Origin: Thermoanaerobaculia bacterium
Lineage (GTDB): Bacteria > Acidobacteriota > Thermoanaerobaculia > Multivoradales > JAHZIX01
DNA: 52,210 nucleotides
Assembly (NCBI GenBank): GCA_027069135.1
Contig: JALXFE010000325.1
Span: 1-52,210 of the forward strand
Direction of reading: 5' to 3'
Shown piece by piece: positions 20,008 through 30,671 of the stretch. Position 1 is the stretch's first letter, and every line of letters starts with the position of its first letter. The notes beneath the pieces were generated by a model. It was given only the letters and a program-made list of their open reading frames with translations, was not told where the DNA came from and made no database searches. A program made the position numbers and the translations under genes.

Positions 20008-22425
20008 TCAGTCGGTACCAAGAACGGCCAGGGTTGCCCCGTCGCCACCTTCCCGGTCTCCTCCGGGTCGGAAAGAAGAGACCGCTCGGTGGCTTCGGAG
20101 ATATTCTCGCACCGCCCGCCGCAGGCGACCGGAGCCATGGCCATGAATCACCCGTACCTCGGAGCAGCTCGCCAGGAGGGCTCGATCCAGGAACGCGTCG
20201 AGCTGCTGGAGCGCCGGCTCGACCCGCAGGCCGATCAATTTGAGCTCCGACGGGGAGTCGGCGGAGGAGAGATCGTTTGCGCAGGTGCTGGGGCGGGCCC
20301 GTTTCGGAGCTCCCGGCAAGTCCTGCGCCGAGGCCGGAACCAATTCCGACGCCCGGCATCGTAGGCGCTTTCCGGAGGCCCTCACTTCGGCTTTGTCCCC
20401 CGTCAACTTCTCGAGAATCCCTCTCCAGGCGAGGCTCTTATGCCTCACCGGCTGGCCGACGACCAGGGGTCCGGCAGCGACCGGGCCGTCCTCGGCGTCG
20501 GAGAAAGTGGGTGATTCTGCAAAGAGCCGCTGCACGGCCTTGCCTTCGAGTCCCTTTCTCCGGCCTTCGCGGGCACTCTGGCGAAGTTTCTCTACCTCAT
20601 CTCGAAGCTTGGAGGCGATCTGCTGTTGGAACTCTTCCAACTCCCTTCGCAGCTTCCCCGACACCGCCTTGCGTTCCTGGCGAAGCTCCGCCTCTCGCTC
20701 CTGAAGCCTGCGCCGCAATTGTCGGGCGTCCGAGATCTCCTCCTCGAGAGATATCCGGCGCTGGGCAAGGTCCTTACGGAGATCTTCCACTTCGACCAAC
20801 AATCGCCGGAAATTCCGGTGCTCCTTCCCGAGAAGGGCCTCGGCCCTCTCGAGCCATGGCGACGGCAAACCCAGACGCCGGGCGAGGGCGAGGGCCTCAC
20901 TTCCCCCCGGAGGGCCCGGAACGAGCCGGAAGGTCGGCTGCCCGGTGCGCCCATCGAACTCCATGGCGGCACACGTCGCTCCGGGCAAATCCAAGGCAGC
21001 GGTCGCGATGGGTAGGAGGTGGCTGGTGATAATCCCGAGACTCGAGCGCTGCAGGAGGGCCTCTAACAAGGAGACCGCCAAAGCCGCACCTTCTTCCGGT
21101 TCCGTTCCCGAGCCCAGCTCATCCAGAAGCACGAGCGTTCCTTGGGTTGCGGTCTCCCACACCTCTCGGAGCCGAAGTAGGCGCCCGCTGAAAGTAGACC
21201 GGTCCGCCAACAGATCCTGATCATCCCCCACCGTCGCCACCACGCCCTGGGCCAGGGGAAGCTTTGTTCCCGCATCCGCCGGCACGGGCAGGCCGCAAAG
21301 GTTTGCCAAGACCAGGAGCCCGGTGGTCTTCAGAGCGACAGTCTTGCCTCCGGCGTTGGGGCCGGTAATGACCAGGAGCCTCGTTTCCGCGGAAAGCTCC
21401 ACATCGAGGGGCACCACGGCTTCTTCGTGGCCGGCCTGGCCGAGGGCCTCGGCTCGCAAAGCCGCGAGGCGGGGTTCCAACAAGGGGTGGCGGCCGCCCC
21501 GAAGCTTCAATCGATCCCTGCTACAGAGCTCGACCATCCGACCGTCGGTGAGCTCTGCGAATCGATGAGATGCCTGCAGCAAGTCCAGCTCCGCGAGGAA
21601 TCCGGCGTAACGCAGCGCCTCGGGCCGAGCTGCTTGCGCAGCCCCGAGGAGTTCGGCGAGGATCCGCTGTTTCTCCGCTTCCTCATCTTCCGAAGACTGC
21701 TGAAGCTGGTTGTTGTCCTCCACGACGGAGAGAGGCTCGAAGTAGAAGCTTCGACCGGATCCGGAGCGGCCGTGAGTCAGGCCGGACAGTTTTCCCCGGG
21801 ATCCTGCCTGGAGCGTGAGAACCAACCGTCCCCCGCGCATGGGTACCGTCTCTTCGCTCAGGTTGTCGCGGTTTTCCTGAACGTAGCTGCGCAGCTCTCG
21901 GTAAAGGCCGTCGCGCAAGCGGTGGATTTTCTGGCGCAGCGCAACCAGTTTGGGGCTGGCGTCATGGCGAACCTCGCCGCGGGGATCGAGAGCGCGTTCA
22001 ATTCGCCGCTCGAGATCGCCCAGGTCGGGTAGGTCCCCTTCCGCCGCCGAGAGCTCGGGACAAGGGGGGTCCGCACTGCGAATTCTCTCCCGGATCCGAT
22101 GGACTGCCTTCAGCATGGAGGCCAGGAAGATCAAGTCTGCGCCACTCGAGCCGTGGTGGCCGGTTCCGAGGCGGCGAAGCATCGGCCGAAGAGGTTCTTC
22201 CTGAGATGGCACCAGCCGCCCGGCGCCGAGGAGCCGGGCGGCTTCTTCGAACCGGCGGCGGTGGTCGATCAGCGCTTCCTCGCTGGTGTGAGGTCTCAAG
22301 GAAGCAACGCGTTCGCTTCCAAGGTCCGTGCTGGCAAGCTGCCCGATGACGGCGAGGAGCGACGGAAACTCCAGAGCCCGAAGCGTTGCGTCGGAAGGGT
22401 GGGGAGGCGTGTTGGGGAGGGACAT
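20008..22425 (-). CDS. mutS2: MutS2 (DNA/ribosome-associated MutS-family ATPase)
   Basis: An 805-residue MutS2 protein. The ATPase domain shows Walker A TGPNAGGKTVALKTTG near residue 350, Walker B LVLLDELGSGTEPEEGAALA, and the following STFSGRL block. A long coiled coil then leads to a C-terminal Smr domain (VRVIHGHGSGRLRRAVREYL), a nuclease module in this family. MutS2 suppresses recombination in some species and rescues collided ribosomes in others. I chose ATG 22425; the alternative at 22491 would begin inside the T-tail of the rpsU terminator. Its position between rpsU and dnaG is unusual. Confidence 0.9.
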   Translation of the reverse strand: MSLPNTPPHPSDATLRALEFPSLLAVIGQLASTDLGSERVASLRPHTSEEALIDHRRRFEEAARLLGAGRLVPSQEEPLRPMLRRLGTGHHGSSGADLIFLASMLKAVHRIRERIRSADPPCPELSAAEGDLPDLGDLERRIERALDPRGEVRHDASPKLVALRQKIHRLRDGLYRELRSYVQENRDNLSEETVPMRGGRLVLTLQAGSRGKLSGLTHGRSGSGRSFYFEPLSVVEDNNQLQQSSEDEEAEKQRILAELLGAAQAARPEALRYAGFLAELDLLQASHRFAELTDGRMVELCSRDRLKLRGGRHPLLEPRLAALRAEALGQAGHEEAVVPLDVELSAETRLLVITGPNAGGKTVALKTTGLLVLANLCGLPVPADAGTKLPLAQGVVATVGDDQDLLADRSTFSGRLLRLREVWETATQGTLVLLDELGSGTEPEEGAALAVSLLEALLQRSSLGIITSHLLPIATAALDLPGATCAAMEFDGRTGQPTFRLVPGPPGGSEALALARRLGLPSPWLERAEALLGKEHRNFRRLLVEVEDLRKDLAQRRISLEEEISDARQLRRRLQEREAELRQERKAVSGKLRRELEEFQQQIASKLRDEVEKLRQSAREGRRKGLEGKAVQRLFAESPTFSDAEDGPVAAGPLVVGQPVRHKSLAWRGILEKLTGDKAEVRASGKRLRCRASELVPASAQDLPGAPKRARPSTCANDLSSADSPSELKLIGLRVEPALQQLDAFLDRALLASCSEVRVIHGHGSGRLRRAVREYLRSHRAVSSFRPGGDREGGDGATLAVLGTD

Positions 22426-22489
22426 GGGTTGTGCCTGCGACGGACCGCTGGGATTCTCGGTGGACCTCCTCGTCAAGAAAGTCCGGCCC

Positions 22490-22528
22490 AAAACAAACGC
22501 GGGAACTACCCAGAAGGCAGTTCCCGCG
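22490..22528 (-). terminator. Rho-independent terminator after rpsU
   Basis: A perfect 10-bp stem (CGCGGGAACT 22498-22507 with AGTTCCCGCG 22519-22528), 11-nt loop, then TTTGTTTT on the minus strand (22497-22490). It sits 26 bp after rpsU and 65 bp before the mutS2 start, so it should end or attenuate readthrough from rpsU into mutS2-dnaG. Confidence 0.85.
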
Positions 22529-22880: not shown

Positions 22881-23687
22881 CTAGGAATCACCCTCGTTGA
22901 CCTTGATGGCATTGAAGTCCATCTTGTAGGTCACCAAGTGGCCCTTGCGTTCCTTGAACCAGACTCCCGCGGCACCTCCGCCGTCTTTGGGGTAGAACCA
23001 GGCCGTCACGCCCTTGTCTTCGTAGGGCTTGATATTGCGTAGATTGACCTGTCCCAGGACGGAACGCACCTCGTCTTCTGTCATTCCATCCTCGACGGCC
23101 TCGAAGCGATCTTCGGTCATGAAGCGCAGCTCGTTCGCACGGGCGATCTCTTGGTTGAGCAGCGCGTGGTCGGGAGCCAAGGGAAGCATGCTCTCGAGGA
23201 TGTTGATCGCCCTCTTGTAGTCACCTCCCAAGTTGATGTGGTCCCGAGCAAGATGAATATCTTCGTCGATTTTGATCTCTACGGCTCGTTTCTGACGTTC
23301 GTTGAGAGGCTCCCCGGCGATGGGTGGGTCGTCGTTGATAAAGCTGACGACTCGGCCGACGAGGTCATCGGAACCGCTCTCGATCTCGGCCTTGAGCTCT
23401 TCGATCCGCTGCTTGGCAGCCTCCAGATCCATCGGCTCTTCGCCTTCGCTCGCTTCGGCGTCACTCTCAGCAGCCTCACCCTCCGGCTCGGCGAGCTTCG
23501 CCTCGATCTGCGCTAGTTCATCCCGCAACGCATCCAGAGCCGTCTTGGATTCTTCCAGCTCAGCAACGACAGCTTCCTGGGCCGCGACCAACTCGTCCAG
23601 CTGATGATCCTCTTTCTGACATGCCGGTAGTCCCACCAGGACCACCAAAACACCTAAACTAAGTACTTTGCGCAAGCCGCCTAGCAT
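22881..23687 (-). CDS. Coiled-coil lipoprotein with BamE/SmpA-like C-terminus
   Basis: A 268-residue lipoprotein (lipobox VVLVGLPACQK). After the acylated Cys comes a coiled coil of about 100 residues rich in Glu and Ala, a helical tetratricopeptide-like stretch (YKRAINILESMLPLAPDHAL), and a C-terminal region with EDGMTEDEVRSVLGQVN and AWFYPKDGGGAAGVWFKERK, the pattern of BamE/OmlA-like domains that act in outer-membrane assembly. AGGAGG lies at good spacing before ATG 23687. The combination is not one I can name; function is unknown. Confidence 0.75.
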   Translation of the reverse strand: MLGGLRKVLSLGVLVVLVGLPACQKEDHQLDELVAAQEAVVAELEESKTALDALRDELAQIEAKLAEPEGEAAESDAEASEGEEPMDLEAAKQRIEELKAEIESGSDDLVGRVVSFINDDPPIAGEPLNERQKRAVEIKIDEDIHLARDHINLGGDYKRAINILESMLPLAPDHALLNQEIARANELRFMTEDRFEAVEDGMTEDEVRSVLGQVNLRNIKPYEDKGVTAWFYPKDGGGAAGVWFKERKGHLVTYKMDFNAIKVNEGDS

Positions 23688-23904: not shown

Positions 23905-25794
23905 ATGTCGCTAGACGAGAAGATCCGCGAGCTTGACGGGCAGATCGCGAGCCGTGTGAAACAGTGGTTGCGGGAACAACATGAATTGCTGGGCCGAAAG
24001 CTCGGCGAAGAGATTTCCCGGCAACTGGACAAAGCGGGAGATTTTCTGCCGGAATCCCTGATCTCTGCCGATGTCAAGGCAGAGCTTCAGGCAGCGGCAA
24101 GCCCGGAGCCTGCACCCGTGCAAGCTTCCAGCTCAGATCTCCGAGAAGCGATCATCGCCGTGGACGCGGCTCGGACCCAGGCGACGACGCTGGCCGCTCT
24201 GCTCGCTGAGGGCTCCCGGTTCGCTTCCCGCATGGCCGTTTTCCTCGTCCGCTCCGAGGAGGCGATCGGCTGGAAGAGCCAGGGTTTCGGCGAGGCCGGG
24301 GAAGCTCTTCGATCCCTCTCTATCGCATTTCGGGATGGTGGCCCCTGGGATCGGCTAGCCGAAGGCCGTGCCAGCGTGCGCATGTCCGCGGTAGATTGCG
24401 CCCGTTTGTGCAGCCGCATCGAGAGCCCGTTACCGAAGCGGGGTCTCCTCATTCCGTTGGTTCTTCGCGACCAAGTGGCGGCGGCGATCTACGCGGACCA
24501 GCTCGGCGACGACGGGGCGCTAGATGCGGAAGCTCTCCAAATTCTCACCTTTTCGGCTGCCCAAGCAATCGAGACGCTGCCCTTCCGCCAGCGTTCCGTG
24601 ACGACCCCCACCCTGGTTTTCGAAGCCGAGGATGCTTCGTCGGACGACGATCACAGCAGCCAAGGCCTCAGCCTGTGGGGGGCCGCCGGTGCCCCGGCGA
24701 CGGAAGAAACCGTCGAAGAAGCGCCCGTCGAGGCCTCCTCGAGCGAAGAGGATGTCGATTTTGAGGCGCCGGATACCCAAGATGTCGGACCGATCGTGGA
24801 AGAAATCCTGGAGGCCGGGGAAGACGCCGAGGGAGACACCGAGGAAGACACAGCCGCCCCAGAGCTGGAGGCCGTGGAAGACCTGATCGATGCGCCCGTC
24901 GTGGAAAAAAGCTCTGGCGACGACCTGGAACCCCCGGAACCTCTCGAGGTTTCCGAGGACTTCGATGCGCCCGTCCCGGATCCGGCGGTGGAGACCGTGG
25001 CCGAGCCCGAAGCCCTGACCTGGCAGGATGAAGTGGAGGTCATCGAGGAGCCGGAAACCGTCGAAAGCCTGGACCCGGAGAACGTCGAGGTCTGGGAGGC
25101 GGAGCCCGTGGTCGCCCCGGAAGAGGTCGGCGAGCTCCCTTCTCTGGATCCGGATCCGATCCCGGAAGCGCCCGACCCGGCCGCGTTGGAGACGGTCGAG
25201 CCGGCGGCGGACGGTCTCCAGACTCTGCACTACCCTGTGCCGACGCTTCCCGAGACACCTCCCGTCGAGCCGTCCCCCGTCACGGGATCGGACGGTTACC
25301 CGGAACCTGACGAGACGGTCCTCCTGAGCCGACCCCCGTCGCTTAGAACGCCGACGACCTCGATTTCCACAGATGACGCCTTCGATGGAGACGAGACCCA
25401 TCCGGGCACCGGTTCAGCCGCCCCGGTGGTGGAACCTCCGGCTCCGGTGCCGCCGACCCGCGCTTCCGAGGTCGCCCCTCCTTCTGACATCGACGGTCCC
25501 GGTTGGGCCTTCGGTAACCGGGTCCAGCCGGTGGCGGGTGATGAAGAGATGCACGAGAAGGCCAAGCGTTTGGCGAGATTGCTGGTGAGCGAGATCAAGC
25601 TCTACAACGAAGAGCAAGTCGAAGAGGGGCAGCGCAACGGAAACATCTACGAGCGTCTCAAAGAAGATATCGACCGCTCCCGGCAGATGTACGAAGATCG
25701 AGTCGACGAACGAGTTCGAACCACGAACGACTACTTCTACCAGGAGCTCGTGCGCACTCTCGCCTCCGGCGACGCTCAGGCCCTAGGCATCTGA
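23905..25794 (+). CDS. GAF-like domain protein with acidic linker and conserved helical C-terminus
   Basis: A 629-residue cytosolic protein. Residues 1-55 are helical. Residues 80-235 look like a GAF-type sensory domain (SRFASRMAVFLVRSEEAIGW; LLIPLVLRDQVAAAIYADQL; AEALQILTFSAAQAIETL). Residues 240-535 are an extremely acidic Pro/Glu/Val-rich linker, likely disordered. The last 85 residues (AKRLARLLVSEIKLYNEEQV; GNIYERLKEDIDRSRQMYED) form a helical module that I associate with Acidobacteriota proteins. Ligand and partners are unknown. It is first in an apparent operon with gaps of 14, 13 and 18 bp. Confidence 0.75.
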   Translation: MSLDEKIRELDGQIASRVKQWLREQHELLGRKLGEEISRQLDKAGDFLPESLISADVKAELQAAASPEPAPVQASSSDLREAIIAVDAARTQATTLAALLAEGSRFASRMAVFLVRSEEAIGWKSQGFGEAGEALRSLSIAFRDGGPWDRLAEGRASVRMSAVDCARLCSRIESPLPKRGLLIPLVLRDQVAAAIYADQLGDDGALDAEALQILTFSAAQAIETLPFRQRSVTTPTLVFEAEDASSDDDHSSQGLSLWGAAGAPATEETVEEAPVEASSSEEDVDFEAPDTQDVGPIVEEILEAGEDAEGDTEEDTAAPELEAVEDLIDAPVVEKSSGDDLEPPEPLEVSEDFDAPVPDPAVETVAEPEALTWQDEVEVIEEPETVESLDPENVEVWEAEPVVAPEEVGELPSLDPDPIPEAPDPAALETVEPAADGLQTLHYPVPTLPETPPVEPSPVTGSDGYPEPDETVLLSRPPSLRTPTTSISTDDAFDGDETHPGTGSAAPVVEPPAPVPPTRASEVAPPSDIDGPGWAFGNRVQPVAGDEEMHEKAKRLARLLVSEIKLYNEEQVEEGQRNGNIYERLKEDIDRSRQMYEDRVDERVRTTNDYFYQELVRTLASGDAQALGI

Positions 25795-25808: not shown

Positions 25809-27236
25809 ATGATCCACGCCTTCATCAACTCCGGCTCGAAGTGGCGACCGCAGATTTGCCTGGCCTTGTGGCTTGTTGCGCAACTGGGGGCGACAGCCTG
25901 TCTTAATCCTCGGGTGAACGAGTCGAAGCCCGAGGGGCCGAGGCATGTCGTGTTCATCACCGCCCAAGGCCTTCGTCCGGATGCGCTTTCGCTCTCGGGG
26001 CCCTCCGGAACTCGTCTCACGCCGCACCTCGATGCTTTGTTTGCGAGCGCGAGCGCCTCCGGCTCGGCCATCTCCCCGTCGCCGGATACGGCGCCGGCTC
26101 TGGCTTCGGCGGTCACGGGGCTACCTCCTTGGCAACATCAGGTCCTTCATCGCGAGAGCCCTCCTCCGGCGGGCCACCTCTATACCCTGGCGGAGAGTTT
26201 TCGAGATCGTGGGTTCGCGACGACCGCCATCTCGAGCGGCAGGCTTCTGCGCCGGAACCCCGGATATCTCCAGGGGTTCCAGAAGGTCCTCGGGCTCCAG
26301 AAGGAAGCGCAAGTCCGCAGCTACCTGGCGGGGATTTCCCAGGATCCGACCTTTACATGGATTCATTTCTCCCAACCCCAGCCACCCTATTTTCGGAACA
26401 GATCGGATCGCAATCCCCGCCGCCGCCGGGCGCTTCTAGCAGAGATGGAACGCTACCGGAATCCCGCCATCGCCCTGCCGGCAGCCCAAAGGGATCGGTT
26501 TTGGCGAGGGTATCTGCGCAACGTCTCTTGGTTGGACCAAGAGCTCGGCTCCCTCCTCGATGCCTTTCGATCGAGCGGCCAATGGGACAAAACCCTGGTG
26601 GTCTTTGTCTCCTTGTTTGGGGAAGAGTTTGGCGAGCACGGTCAGCTGGGCCATTCGAACAACCTGGGCCGAGCCGTCCTCGAAGTGCCCTGGGCTCTGA
26701 AGCTCCCGGCATCGATGGACCCGGGCTCGCTCCAGGTGCCGGGCCGACCCGCCGTCGGGCGTCTGATCTCGACCATGCTGGCGGCCACGGGGCAGCCGCC
26801 CCCGCCAGCCCTGGCCCGTCCCCTCTTTGAAGAAGGGGATGACGGCGCTCTCTCGGAGCTCTACCTCGGCAACGGTGTCAACCGCTTCTCCCTGATGCAG
26901 GGTGATCTGCAATGGGTTCGTACCGTTCGTTTCGCCCGTCCGGAGCGCGGGTACTACCTCGCCCGCCGACAGCTTCTGGGAGATCCACGGGTCGGAGGGG
27001 ATAAGGTTGAGGCGGAGGATGTTTTTCAGCGCTTGGAAGAGGCCTTTGAGAGCTCTCAACCCTTTTCCGGACCGGGAACTGCTGTCGAGACGGAGCTTTA
27101 CCGCTGGAATGACGCGGGGGCAAGCCCCATCGACGATCCGCCGAGGGAGGCGCGACGGAGCGCGGCCCTGGCGAAACGTTGGGGATCATCCCTGGACTCC
27201 GAGAGGTCGCCTGCGGAAGAACGGCGCTTCCGGTAG
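25809..27236 (+). CDS. Sulfatase/alkaline-phosphatase-fold lipoprotein-like protein with degenerate active site
   Basis: A 475-residue protein with an N-terminal signal or lipobox (LVAQLGATACLN). The sulfatase fold is seen in VVFITAQGLRPDALSLSGPS, TAPALASAVTGLPPWQHQVL, SFRDRGFATTAISSG and the late GEHGQLGHSNNLGRAVLEVP. Two catalytic features are missing: the metal-binding Asp of the first strand is Gln (ITAQGLR), and the C/S-x-P-x-R nucleophile motif reads T-A-P-A-L. A Thr nucleophile would fit phosphoethanolamine-transferase-like relatives, but the lost metal ligand argues for a pseudo-enzyme. It lies 14 bp after the GAF-like gene. Confidence 0.75.
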   Translation: MIHAFINSGSKWRPQICLALWLVAQLGATACLNPRVNESKPEGPRHVVFITAQGLRPDALSLSGPSGTRLTPHLDALFASASASGSAISPSPDTAPALASAVTGLPPWQHQVLHRESPPPAGHLYTLAESFRDRGFATTAISSGRLLRRNPGYLQGFQKVLGLQKEAQVRSYLAGISQDPTFTWIHFSQPQPPYFRNRSDRNPRRRRALLAEMERYRNPAIALPAAQRDRFWRGYLRNVSWLDQELGSLLDAFRSSGQWDKTLVVFVSLFGEEFGEHGQLGHSNNLGRAVLEVPWALKLPASMDPGSLQVPGRPAVGRLISTMLAATGQPPPPALARPLFEEGDDGALSELYLGNGVNRFSLMQGDLQWVRTVRFARPERGYYLARRQLLGDPRVGGDKVEAEDVFQRLEEAFESSQPFSGPGTAVETELYRWNDAGASPIDDPPREARRSAALAKRWGSSLDSERSPAEERRFR

Positions 27237-27249
27237 CTCAAAGGCGACC

Positions 27250-28827
27250 ATGGCAAGAAGAAAAACAAACCCCGGAAGCCAAGATTGGCGAGCTCACCGG
27301 GCTCTGGAGCGCCCCGTAGCCCCGCTGCCGGAGCACGGGGAGTTCCGCCTGGCACTAGCCTACGCGAACACCTACCACATCGGCATGTCGAGTCTCGGAT
27401 TCCAGCGGGTTCACGAGCTCATCTGCCGGCGTCCCGGTTGGGTGAGCGAGCGGTTTTTCAGCGACGGTTCTGGCCGACTCCTTTCCGTCGAAACGGGAAC
27501 CGGTCTGGACGAGTTTGGCTGCATCGCTTTCTCCGTCTCCTTCGAGGAGGATTACACCAACCTTCTGCGGATGCTCGACCGGGCCGGGATCCCGTTACGG
27601 CGGGAGGCCCGAGGTTCCGGGGATCCGGTGATCGTGATGGGCGGATCCTGCGCCAGCATCAACCCGCTGCCGATGGCGTCCTTTGTCGACGTCTTTGCGC
27701 TGGGAGCGGCCGAGAATATCTTGCCCCCCCTGCTCCGAGCCTTGGAAGAAGAGACAGACCGGGGCGCAGTCCTCGAGCGCCTTTCGACAGAGGCGGGCTT
27801 CTTCGTCCCTCGCTACCACTGCGCCGAGGACCACACGGGTCTCGGGAAGCTCCGCAAGCTGGAGCTGTCGGCAGAGCAGATGCGTCACCCGGGCGCCTTG
27901 CCCACGACCAGCATCGTCACGCCGAATACCGAGTTCGCCGACAAATTCCTGATCGAGATGTCCCGGGGCTGTCCGGAAAAATGCCGCTACTGCTGGGCGA
28001 CTTTCGGGATGGGTAAGTTCCGCTGGCACCCGACGGAATACATCATGGAAGCCCTCGAAAGGGCCCGCGCGGTGACCGACCAGGTGGGTTTCGTGGCGAC
28101 AGCGGTCGGAGATCATCCCCAAGTGGAGGAGATTCTGCGTCGCTCCGTGGACCTGGGGCTTCGAGCCTCCGTCTCGTCGATTCGGATTCCCGCCGTGACC
28201 GAAGGGGTCCTCGAGGCCGTACAGGAATCCGGAGGCCGCTCCATCACCCTCGCGCCGGAAACCGGCACCGACTCCCTGCGCGCCAAAATGGGAAAGCCCA
28301 TCCGAAACGAACTGCTTCTGGAGAAAATTCGCCTCATCTTTCGCCAGGGTCTGACCCACCTGAAGCTTTACTTCATCGTCGGCCTACCGGACGAAACCGA
28401 CGACGACGTGTACGCCATCGCAGACCTTGCGGCCAAGGCTCGCGACATCATGCTGGAGGAGCTGGCCCGCCCTCGCGGCATCATCGGCCACATCCAGGTG
28501 GGCGCCAGCGTTTTGGTTCCCAAGCCCTACACCCCGTGGCAGCGTCTGCCGATGGCAGACCCGCGGACCGTCAAGCGGCGCCTCTCGATTCTGAAGCGGG
28601 AGATCGGCCGTCTCCCCAACGCCTCTTTGTCCACCGGCTCTATCCGGCAGGCGATCTGGCAGACCTATATCAGCCGAGCCGGAGTGGACGCCGCCGAAGC
28701 CATCGAGCGCCATGCGCGAGGGCAGAATCTTTCCTCTTTGCTGCGGGAGCTCCGCGAGCACATCCACCCGGAGGTCTACGAGCCCTTCGAAGGAAGTCTG
28801 CGCTGGCATTTCATGGCGACGGGGTAG
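27250..28827 (+). CDS. Radical SAM protein with N-terminal B12-binding-like domain
   Basis: A 525-residue protein. The N-terminal 190 residues (LAYANTYHIGMSSLGFQRVH; FGCIAFSVSFEEDYTNLLRM; VIVMGGSCASINPLPMASFV; DVFALGAAENIL) resemble the cobalamin-binding-like fold preceding many radical SAM domains. The iron-sulphur motif CPEKCRYCW (C-x3-C-x2-C) follows, with later ITLAPETGTDSLRAKMGKP and LKLYFIVGLPDETDDD typical of the barrel. It would cleave S-adenosylmethionine to a radical for an unknown modification. The frame is open to 26902 but overlaps the upstream gene; ATG 27250 is 13 bp after that gene's stop. Confidence 0.85.
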   Translation: MARRKTNPGSQDWRAHRALERPVAPLPEHGEFRLALAYANTYHIGMSSLGFQRVHELICRRPGWVSERFFSDGSGRLLSVETGTGLDEFGCIAFSVSFEEDYTNLLRMLDRAGIPLRREARGSGDPVIVMGGSCASINPLPMASFVDVFALGAAENILPPLLRALEEETDRGAVLERLSTEAGFFVPRYHCAEDHTGLGKLRKLELSAEQMRHPGALPTTSIVTPNTEFADKFLIEMSRGCPEKCRYCWATFGMGKFRWHPTEYIMEALERARAVTDQVGFVATAVGDHPQVEEILRRSVDLGLRASVSSIRIPAVTEGVLEAVQESGGRSITLAPETGTDSLRAKMGKPIRNELLLEKIRLIFRQGLTHLKLYFIVGLPDETDDDVYAIADLAAKARDIMLEELARPRGIIGHIQVGASVLVPKPYTPWQRLPMADPRTVKRRLSILKREIGRLPNASLSTGSIRQAIWQTYISRAGVDAAEAIERHARGQNLSSLLRELREHIHPEVYEPFEGSLRWHFMATG

Positions 28828-28845: not shown

Positions 28846-29580
28846 GTGAACCTGCTCCTCCTCCACCCCGACGAGCTGTCCACCGACGGCTCCCCCCTTC
28901 GCCTTGAGGGCCGGCGCTTCGACCATGTCCGACAGGTCCTGCGATCCGCTCCCGGGGACCTCCTCCGGGTCGGTGTCCTCGGCGGAAAGCTTGGTCAGGG
29001 TCGCCTCATCACGCTTGGGGATGACTTCTTAGATCTTCTCCTCGACCCCTCGAGGGATCCGGCCACCGGTCTCGATCAGGAGTCGCCGCTGGTGTTGCCC
29101 TGGACCCTCATCCTCGCCCTTCCCCGGCCCAAAGTGCTGCGCCGCCTGATCAGCGCCATCGCTACTTTGGGAATCGCGCGGATCTACCTCCTTCACACCT
29201 ACAAGGTGGACAAGGCCTACTGGCAAAGTCCCTTGCTCTCGAAGGAATCCCTCCACCAGGCACTTCTCCTGGGCCTCGAGCAGGCCGGCGCGACCCGTCT
29301 ACCGGAGCTCCATTTGCGCAACCGTTTCAAGCCGTTTGCAGAGGACGAGCTCCCCGGTCTCGCCGCCGACACCACCGCCCTCGTCCTCCATCCGGGCTCC
29401 TCTACCCCCTGTCCCCGGGCTGTCGAGGGGCCCTTGATTGTCGCCATCGGCCCGGAAGGTGGATTCCTGCCCTACGAGATCGGCAAGCTCGAAGAAGCCG
29501 GCCTAGAAGCCGTCAGCCTAGGTGAACGTATCCTGCGTGTCGAAACCGTCGTCCCCTGGGCCCTCGGGCGTTTGATGTGA
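28846..29580 (+). CDS. rsmE: 16S rRNA (uracil(1498)-N3)-methyltransferase
   Basis: A 244-residue SPOUT-fold methyltransferase that modifies U1498 of 16S rRNA. The C-terminal knot motif LIVAIGPEGGFLPYEIGKLE followed by VSLGERILRVETVVPWAL is diagnostic; the N-terminal PUA-like part shows RRFDHVRQVLRSAPGDLLRV. It starts at a GTG (28846), 18 bp after the radical SAM gene, and is probably the last gene of that operon. Confidence 0.92.
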   Translation: MNLLLLHPDELSTDGSPLRLEGRRFDHVRQVLRSAPGDLLRVGVLGGKLGQGRLITLGDDFLDLLLDPSRDPATGLDQESPLVLPWTLILALPRPKVLRRLISAIATLGIARIYLLHTYKVDKAYWQSPLLSKESLHQALLLGLEQAGATRLPELHLRNRFKPFAEDELPGLAADTTALVLHPGSSTPCPRAVEGPLIVAIGPEGGFLPYEIGKLEEAGLEAVSLGERILRVETVVPWALGRLM

Positions 29581-29630: not shown

Positions 29631-30671
29631 TCAGGCTTGGATCAGTCGCCGGATGTACCAGCGCAGGACCCGGTGTGGAAGGACCGAAAGGGTCAGGGTC
29701 GGCTCGAGGCTAGAGGCGGGCGGTGTGGTCCAAGGGCCAGGGACGACGGCGCGATCCTGGCCCTTTAAGAGAATGCTTTCCAGGTCGTCGAAGCCGTCTT
29801 GGCCGGAGCAGAGCACCCGTTGGCCGGCAGCTCCGAGGAAGAGCAACCGCAAGGGCCGGGTTGCCACCGCAGGGTTTTCTTCCAGAGGAGTGAGGCTGAC
29901 CTCGCAGGAGTGCCCGGAAAGCACTCGCTCCATCCAGGGTCTGGCGTCGTAGCTGAAGCGCAGACCATCGGAGGCTTCGACGGCGAGACCGCAGGACAGG
30001 AGCTCCTCGACCTGGTCGCGAGGTTCTCCCTCGACTTCCGGAAGATGGGCCAGGACCTCCAAGGCCAGATCCCTAGGAATCGCCTGGTCGAAAGCGCGTT
30101 CCGCCCCGCACCAGAGTCCTTCGATGGTCTCGAGGGCCGAAAAGGGAAGCTCCAATCGATCTCCCGTAACCGAGGACTCCTCGCCGGCTAACTGGTCTTC
30201 AAGAGTGTCGCAGAGAAGGCTCCGCTCCATGGGGGTGCCGAGGTGAAGGCCTGCATCGTCAATAAAGGCGGGTACCGCGAGCTCGCCACTCAGAAAGAGG
30301 GGGAGCACAGAGGGTTCTCCCTCTGGGGTATACCGGGCTACCACCAGGCGAGCCTGGGGTCGGGCCATCGCCTTTAGGGAAAGGAGAAGGTAGGCACCCA
30401 TCTCGGAGGAGGGCTCGTAGGGTGCTCCGCGAAGAAGACCTTTTTCTTCGAGCCGGGCACAGACAGCGCGAGTATCGTCGGGTGGCCCGGGGTGGCCGTG
30501 GAGCAACGTGGTGATGGGGCTTGCGGGGGAGGGGCTGATGGCCTCCGATCGGACGAGCTGGGCAAGCTCAGCCGGCGAAAACGTGACAATGGGCCAGGGC
30601 GAATCAGTGTTGTCGTTGGCCGCTCGCGCGCCGGAGACACCTGGGGGGGCCTGAACTGCGGATTCAATCAT
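29631..30671 (-). CDS. Hypothetical protein, 346 residues
   Basis: No family recognised. It is soluble, acidic, without signal peptide or membrane segments. The N-terminal 40 residues are low complexity; the middle has alternating strand and helix (AYLLLSLKAMARPQARLVVA) and the C-terminus ends with a basic helix (LPHRVLRWYIRRLIQA). Its start overlaps the stop of a possible 62-residue upstream frame as ATGA. It is convergent with rsmE at 50 bp. Strong coding character and lack of rival frames support it as a real gene. Confidence 0.6.
   Translation of the reverse strand: MIESAVQAPPGVSGARAANDNTDSPWPIVTFSPAELAQLVRSEAISPSPASPITTLLHGHPGPPDDTRAVCARLEEKGLLRGAPYEPSSEMGAYLLLSLKAMARPQARLVVARYTPEGEPSVLPLFLSGELAVPAFIDDAGLHLGTPMERSLLCDTLEDQLAGEESSVTGDRLELPFSALETIEGLWCGAERAFDQAIPRDLALEVLAHLPEVEGEPRDQVEELLSCGLAVEASDGLRFSYDARPWMERVLSGHSCEVSLTPLEENPAVATRPLRLLFLGAAGQRVLCSGQDGFDDLESILLKGQDRAVVPGPWTTPPASSLEPTLTLSVLPHRVLRWYIRRLIQA

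Follow-up and report, generated by a model that had tools for sequence, protein, structure and literature searches.

A putative sulfatase-fold pseudoenzyme family at a conserved locus in one order of Acidobacteriota

The locus and its neighbours

The analysed stretch of DNA (the window, 52,210 nucleotides of a Thermoanaerobaculia contig) carries on its plus strand, at 25,809–27,236, an open reading frame that starts with ATG, encodes 475 residues and has no internal stop. The product matches the Pfam Sulfatase family (PF00884) with 68.2 bits, for a cut-off of 25, and belongs to a clade of 17 proteins of the same order, hereafter group B; its relatives with a full catalytic set are called group A. 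The protein has a single hydrophobic N-terminal segment and no 19-residue transmembrane-like window beyond residue 60. Cys31 (25,899–25,901, plus strand), which follows this segment, is the probable lipidation residue: its column holds Cys in all 15 group B rows that have a letter there and in 27/27 group A rows. The lipobox of this copy (A-T-A-C) is weak; 7/17 group B copies fit the strict pattern and 14/17 the loose one, and the full-length row L035 is without Cys at the lipidation position. Judged from these features, the product is probably a surface or envelope lipoprotein.

The upstream gene (23,905–25,794, plus strand) ends 14 bp before the sulfatase ATG, and at E 0.01 its product matched neither Pfam nor NCBIfam. 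The predicted model (whole-model pLDDT 62.5) shows an N-terminal helix, a GAF fold at residues 70–230, a long middle part of low confidence and a conserved helical C-terminus; residues 70–230 match 3trc with Z 14.4 (156 aligned residues, 3.8 Å). Conservation in this protein is highest over the C-terminal 110 residues, with best segments 45–72% identical at other loci; this region is apparently an undescribed helical domain. Further upstream, on the minus strand, lie a lipoprotein-like gene of conserved position (22,881–23,687), which has no Pfam or NCBIfam family above cut-off, and mutS2 (20,008–22,491; TIGR01069, 634.8 bits). The lipoprotein-like product is possibly a coiled coil; its gene points away from the GAF gene at most inspected loci and was not found in L053.

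These genes belong to a conserved block. In its fullest order, which is a composite from which individual loci may miss genes, the block reads DnaG, MutS2 and the lipoprotein, then divergently the GAF gene, Slt (in part of the loci), the group B gene, a CT398-like zinc ribbon, YggS, DivIVA, a nucleotidyltransferase and an amidohydrolase. The GAF gene was found upstream of the group B gene on the same contig in 15/17 cases, directly in nine and separated by Slt in six; the remaining two are cut by contig ends. The zinc ribbon and YggS genes follow the group B gene in 16/17 genomes, the exception being that of the window, where they are located on a separate contig (C302). At nine loci seen whole from GAF to zinc ribbon (L103–L106, L108–L110, L112 and L113), the block is present without the group B gene. 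Within the stretch covered, MutS2, the lipoprotein and GAF were found near group A at none of 16 loci.

An SLT-domain protein (PF01464) is encoded directly upstream of the group B gene in 7 genomes; the two reading frames touch in G024, G018 and G017, depending on the chosen start codons, and in some genomes the block also includes a DivIVA gene. These arrangements would fit a group B protein with a part in peptidoglycan turnover, where it would serve the Slt-like lytic transglycosylase encoded next to it as accessory subunit or regulator. However, the transglycosylase is also found in the block without group B in other families (L106, L108 and L109), and at E 1e-20 it was absent from 9/17 group B genomes, including the window's genome and its whole family (best 15 candidates per genome; one weak match of 79.7 bits was seen in G033, and the corresponding spot in G028 is cut by contig ends). 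A tie of group B to Slt is therefore possible, though not general, and we regard a role as accessory or regulator of Slt as quite unlikely.

Downstream, a radical SAM gene (27,250–28,827, plus strand), whose start was set at an ATG 13 bp past the sulfatase stop, is followed by the gene for the 16S rRNA methyltransferase RsmE (28,846–29,580, plus strand), which adjoins the radical SAM gene in G001 and G002 as well. For a 346-residue open reading frame at 29,631–30,671 (minus strand), Pfam and NCBIfam searches at E 0.01 found nothing. The sequence-only reading had placed the sulfatase gene between a GAF-like and a radical SAM gene and had described the latter as B12-like; both descriptions agree with our results, the nearest model being TIGR03960, for B12-binding radical SAM proteins, which scores 221.7 bits, under its cut-off of 462.3. 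It had also noted that sulfatase genes often lie beside radical SAM maturases. A tie between the two genes is not supported here. The radical SAM gene adjoins the group B gene in 1/17 genomes, that of the window; in G001, G002, G023 and G024 it is on the same contig, 12 to 35 kb away and on the opposite strand, and in the remaining group B genomes on a separate contig, except in G009 and G017, where it was not found at 1e-40. The radical SAM gene is outside the conserved block and its adjacency is a local accident. A working pair of sulfatase and radical SAM protein, as in anSME maturation, would be suggested by the 13 bp gap in the window, but elsewhere the two genes are distant or the partner was not found, and the nucleophile slot is Cys in no group B copy and Ser in 3/16. 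We consider such a pair extremely improbable and rejected the anSME pairing because the adjacency is not conserved.

Positions 27,236–27,250 mark a breakpoint of the block, beyond which radical SAM and rsmE stand in place of the zinc ribbon and YggS genes. This junction may reflect a rearrangement or a contig misjoin. A simple inversion of about 30 kb was considered and rejected: of 14 window ORFs beyond 29.6 kb that were searched, two were matched between the sulfatase and radical SAM genes in G001 and G002 (one shared spot per genome, 62–80 bits, about 31% identity), and this genome's zinc ribbon and YggS genes are on contig C302.

Catalytic slots and predicted fold

The protein was aligned with the solved sulfatase 7oz8. 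Gln53 (25,965–25,967) falls on the first metal Asp; Thr94 (26,088–26,090) and Leu98 fall on the Ser and Arg of S-T-P-A-R, Leu98 thus taking the slot of the stabilising Arg; and Leu269-Phe270 (26,613–26,618) fall on the late metal Asp-His pair, which reads SDHG in relatives. The His of the relatives' PPHAPY motif is replaced by Gln191 (26,379–26,381), and the late block retains G-E-E and His282 (26,652–26,654; all plus strand). The sulfatase-fold protein without key catalytic residues that had been read from the sequence, with Gln for the first Asp and T-A-P-A-L at the nucleophile, was thus confirmed. The claim that the late HG/H block remains was correct for G-E-E and His282 but not for the late Asp-His pair, and the PPH His proved to be lost as well.

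Group A carries D, T, H, D, H and H at slots 53, 94, 191, 269, 270 and 282 in every one of its 27 copies. The corresponding counts in group B are 5/16, 3/16, 0/16, 0/17, 9/17 and 6/17, where denominators of 16 arise because the L048 row is cut ahead of sites 53 and 94 and the G022 row is gapped at 191. The residue at the nucleophile slot varies across group B (T, S, G, P, L or A), as does that at the late Asp slot (L, A or T), and none of the six catalytic residues is common to all members. Thr94 is not itself a loss, since all 27 intact relatives use Thr, which is also reported as the nucleophile of LtaS, EptA and MCR-1 (PMC7576196); the earlier view that Thr in place of Cys/Ser marks a loss is not supported. 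As for the recurrence of both changes in orthologues, Asp is indeed absent from slot 53 in 11/16 copies, whereas Thr is not a shared feature of group B.

The AlphaFold model of the 475-residue protein (29 sequences) had a pLDDT of 89.4 and a pTM of 0.87. Foldseek retrieved the choline sulfatase 7ptj (E 2e-17), and VIA matched the model to 6hr5 (Z 31.4, 326 aligned residues, 2.8 Å) and to YejM 6vat (Z 29.2, 309 aligned residues, 3.0 Å), in line with the overlay on known structures proposed at the outset. In searches with a profile of 16 group B rows sulfatases ranked first (7oz8, 2e-30) and YejM reached 5e-11. The protein is thus predicted to adopt the full sulfatase fold; a predicted fold cannot show function.

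With S1 FGly sulfatases such as choline sulfatase and the arylsulfatases, the protein has the whole predicted fold and the Pfam family in common. It differs from them in that C/S-x-P-x-R is absent (T94-A-P-A-L98) and the first metal Asp and the late Asp-His are replaced (Q53, L269, F270). LtaS/EptA-like Thr enzymes possess an N-terminal multi-helix membrane domain. The Thr at the nucleophile slot is shared with LtaS, EptA and MCR-1 by this copy and by all group A proteins, though by 3/16 of group B; unlike these enzymes, the 475-residue protein has neither the metal ligands (Glu/Asp, late Asp and His) nor the multi-helix domain. As no metal ligand set survives, the suggestion of a new transferase is left without support.

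Family, tree and selection

The 475-residue protein was searched against 98 relatives, and a group B profile against all 72 genomes of the order, including its own. The full-length family is sharply set off: 43 places scored at least 381 bits and the next one 235. The 44th member, in G022 (197 bits, 413 residues), is without a middle part and was recognised through its position in the block. The family thus comprises 44 members, 27 in group A and 17 in group B; since only the best 22 candidates per genome were scored, members as short or as weakly scoring as the G022 copy may have been overlooked. Among 396 genomes sampled from the phylum, at least 19 matched at 1e-70, all of them within this order (best four candidates per genome). 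Group A is present in 23/24 genomes of family f4 and in G000, G007, G015 and G028, and group B in f1 (4/4), f5 (4/4), f6 (4/7), f7 (2/2) and f8 (3/3). Four genomes, including that of the window, carry one copy of each.

Two group B rows are short, that of L048 (contig end) and that of G022. The latter (L102:5652–6773) lacks a central segment of the sulfatase domain while keeping its position in the block. Group A paralogues (e.g. G000:C399:18655-20007) are 37–39% identical to the 475-residue protein over almost the full length and share its N-terminal Cys layout; they differ by their full D/T/H/D/H set and by their genomic places. In group B 49 columns (with at least 13 letters, the start Met not counted) are conserved to at least 90%, and nearly all of them are common to group A; D443, T71 and L113 are more typical of group B.

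A tree was calculated with the catalytic columns masked (17 group B rows and 15 of the 27 group A rows, the outgroup being three sulfatases from this genome). Group B formed one clade (100/99) nested among group A lineages, a position that depends on branches supported at 90/84 and 90/90. An earlier tree of 27 group A and 16 group B rows also recovered the clade (98/99), its bootstrap being unsettled, two of its outgroup rows probably wrong-strand ORFs and one start-cut. The masked tree used motif-checked outgroups and included G022; one group B row and the outgroups were still long-branched. Parsimony on this tree gave one change each for D269 and H191, three each for T94 and H282, four for D53 and five for H270. 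The tree and these counts indicate that the late Asp and the PPH His were lost once and long ago, and that the other slots eroded separately afterwards.

Group B genes are under purifying selection. NG86 dN/dS was 0.28, 0.40, 0.15, 0.13, 0.29 and 0.30 for six group B pairs and 0.33, 0.45, 0.21 and 0.16 for four group A pairs, and YN00 gave 0.08–0.18 for group B and 0.07–0.10 for group A (3 pairs each); both methods give approximate values where sites are GC-rich, and the more divergent pairs approach saturation. In the genome pair G015/G028, which carries both genes, dN/dS was 0.28 for B and 0.33 for A, with identities of 88% and 90%. Neutrality would predict 7 to 71 nonsense hits across five group B pairs, and the frames are open; the stop reported inside four group B profile matches is each time the terminal stop of the gene.

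We also weighed whether the gene of the window is a pseudogene in progress. Catalytic residues are lost, the copy is only about 40% identical to the copy from its own genus, group B branches are long in some families and the G022 copy has lost its middle part. Against such decay, the loss is common to all orthologues found, the reading frames are open, dN/dS is well below 1 and the rate of B is close to that of A in genomes carrying both. Decay, in the form stated, was rejected on the shared loss, the open frames and the low dN/dS, and we see it as highly improbable. The outcome that would have spoken for it, orthologues with normal residues beside a degenerate copy, did not occur, as the orthologues have lost the metal site too. 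Catalytic residues absent across orthologues, combined with purifying selection, are the marks of a pseudoenzyme. The clade-wide residue loss and dN/dS values like those of group A thus indicate, as far as sequences can, that group B is a maintained, clade-restricted pseudoenzyme family and not one decaying copy, which favours the earlier suggestion of a pseudoenzyme in a conserved locus.

Possible role of the group B protein

A new, non-enzymatic job for the group B gene is the most likely reading. The protein is probably a lipoprotein of the cell envelope whose task is binding or scaffolding and not catalysis. The clade would descend, through a single origin, from a sulfatase- or phosphotransferase-like enzyme with a Thr nucleophile. 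At the root of the clade this ancestor would have lost its late metal Asp and its PPH His in one step each. The first Asp, the nucleophile Thr and the remaining His residues would have eroded afterwards, separately by lineage; the fold, the N-terminal Cys and some non-catalytic residues were retained. The protein would be exported and lipidated, would not hydrolyse esters and may work in the envelope by binding a ligand or another protein, in the way reported for the periplasmic domain of YejM/PbgA with lipid A. Counted against this non-catalytic reading are the retained Thr94 and His282, the weak lipobox of this copy and the absence of the Cys from L035.

Altered canonical residues need not mean lost activity: Mg-dependent phosphatase activity has been reported for YejM despite its altered ligands, so that its inactivity is disputed (PMC7576196). 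Group B proteins could likewise still be enzymes whose active site, on the ancestral fold, has been rebuilt or works without metal, and besides the two catalytic residues kept here, the late His270 persists in nine group B copies and the first Asp in five. However, no catalytic slot is common to all group B members, and no new B-only active site stands out, since the invariant residues of group B are nearly all found in group A. We hold continued catalysis to be unlikely.

The nearest known parallel to a binding or scaffolding lipoprotein is YejM/PbgA, reported as an enterobacterial pseudo-hydrolase that senses lipid A, whose periplasmic domain has the sulfatase/LtaS fold without the canonical catalytic set and a recognition role in the envelope (PMC13125744, PMC7018646). 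The 475-residue protein shares with it a sulfatase-like domain deprived of canonical catalytic residues, with the fold match given above. It differs in that the five-helix membrane domain and the YPMTARRF lipid A motif of YejM are absent from its sequence, a lipoprotein-like single segment being present instead, and in that the group B loss arose separately, within a family having intact members. Binding of lipid A or cardiolipin is a further trait of YejM/PbgA. More speculatively, and rather doubtfully at present, group B could be an independently evolved YejM-like envelope sensor or scaffold of this order: a retired sulfatase-fold lipoprotein, tied to a locus that also contains GAF, DivIVA and, in some genomes, lytic transglycosylase genes, and informing growth or division about an anionic glycan or lipid of the envelope.

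SulfAtlas mentions nine Lentisphaerae/Planctomycetes sequences without the Arg as possibly inactive (PMC5066984). Among the matches listed for inactive or pseudo-sulfatases in mostly open-access literature (titles and abstract openings), nothing concerned a family such as group B, and a search that combined the gene names of the block, mostly in open-access journals, gave no paper. Pfam 'Sulfatase' matches in these genomes can overcount sulfate metabolism and should be read with caution. In the literature searched, YejM/PbgA, which is reported to control outer-membrane balance, was the one clear bacterial sulfatase-fold pseudoenzyme. Group B would be a second case, readable beside an apparently intact sister group, with both side by side in four genomes, and one in which the order of dismantling of a metal active site is visible: the late Asp and the PPH His go first, each in a single loss, and the other residues follow later and more than once.
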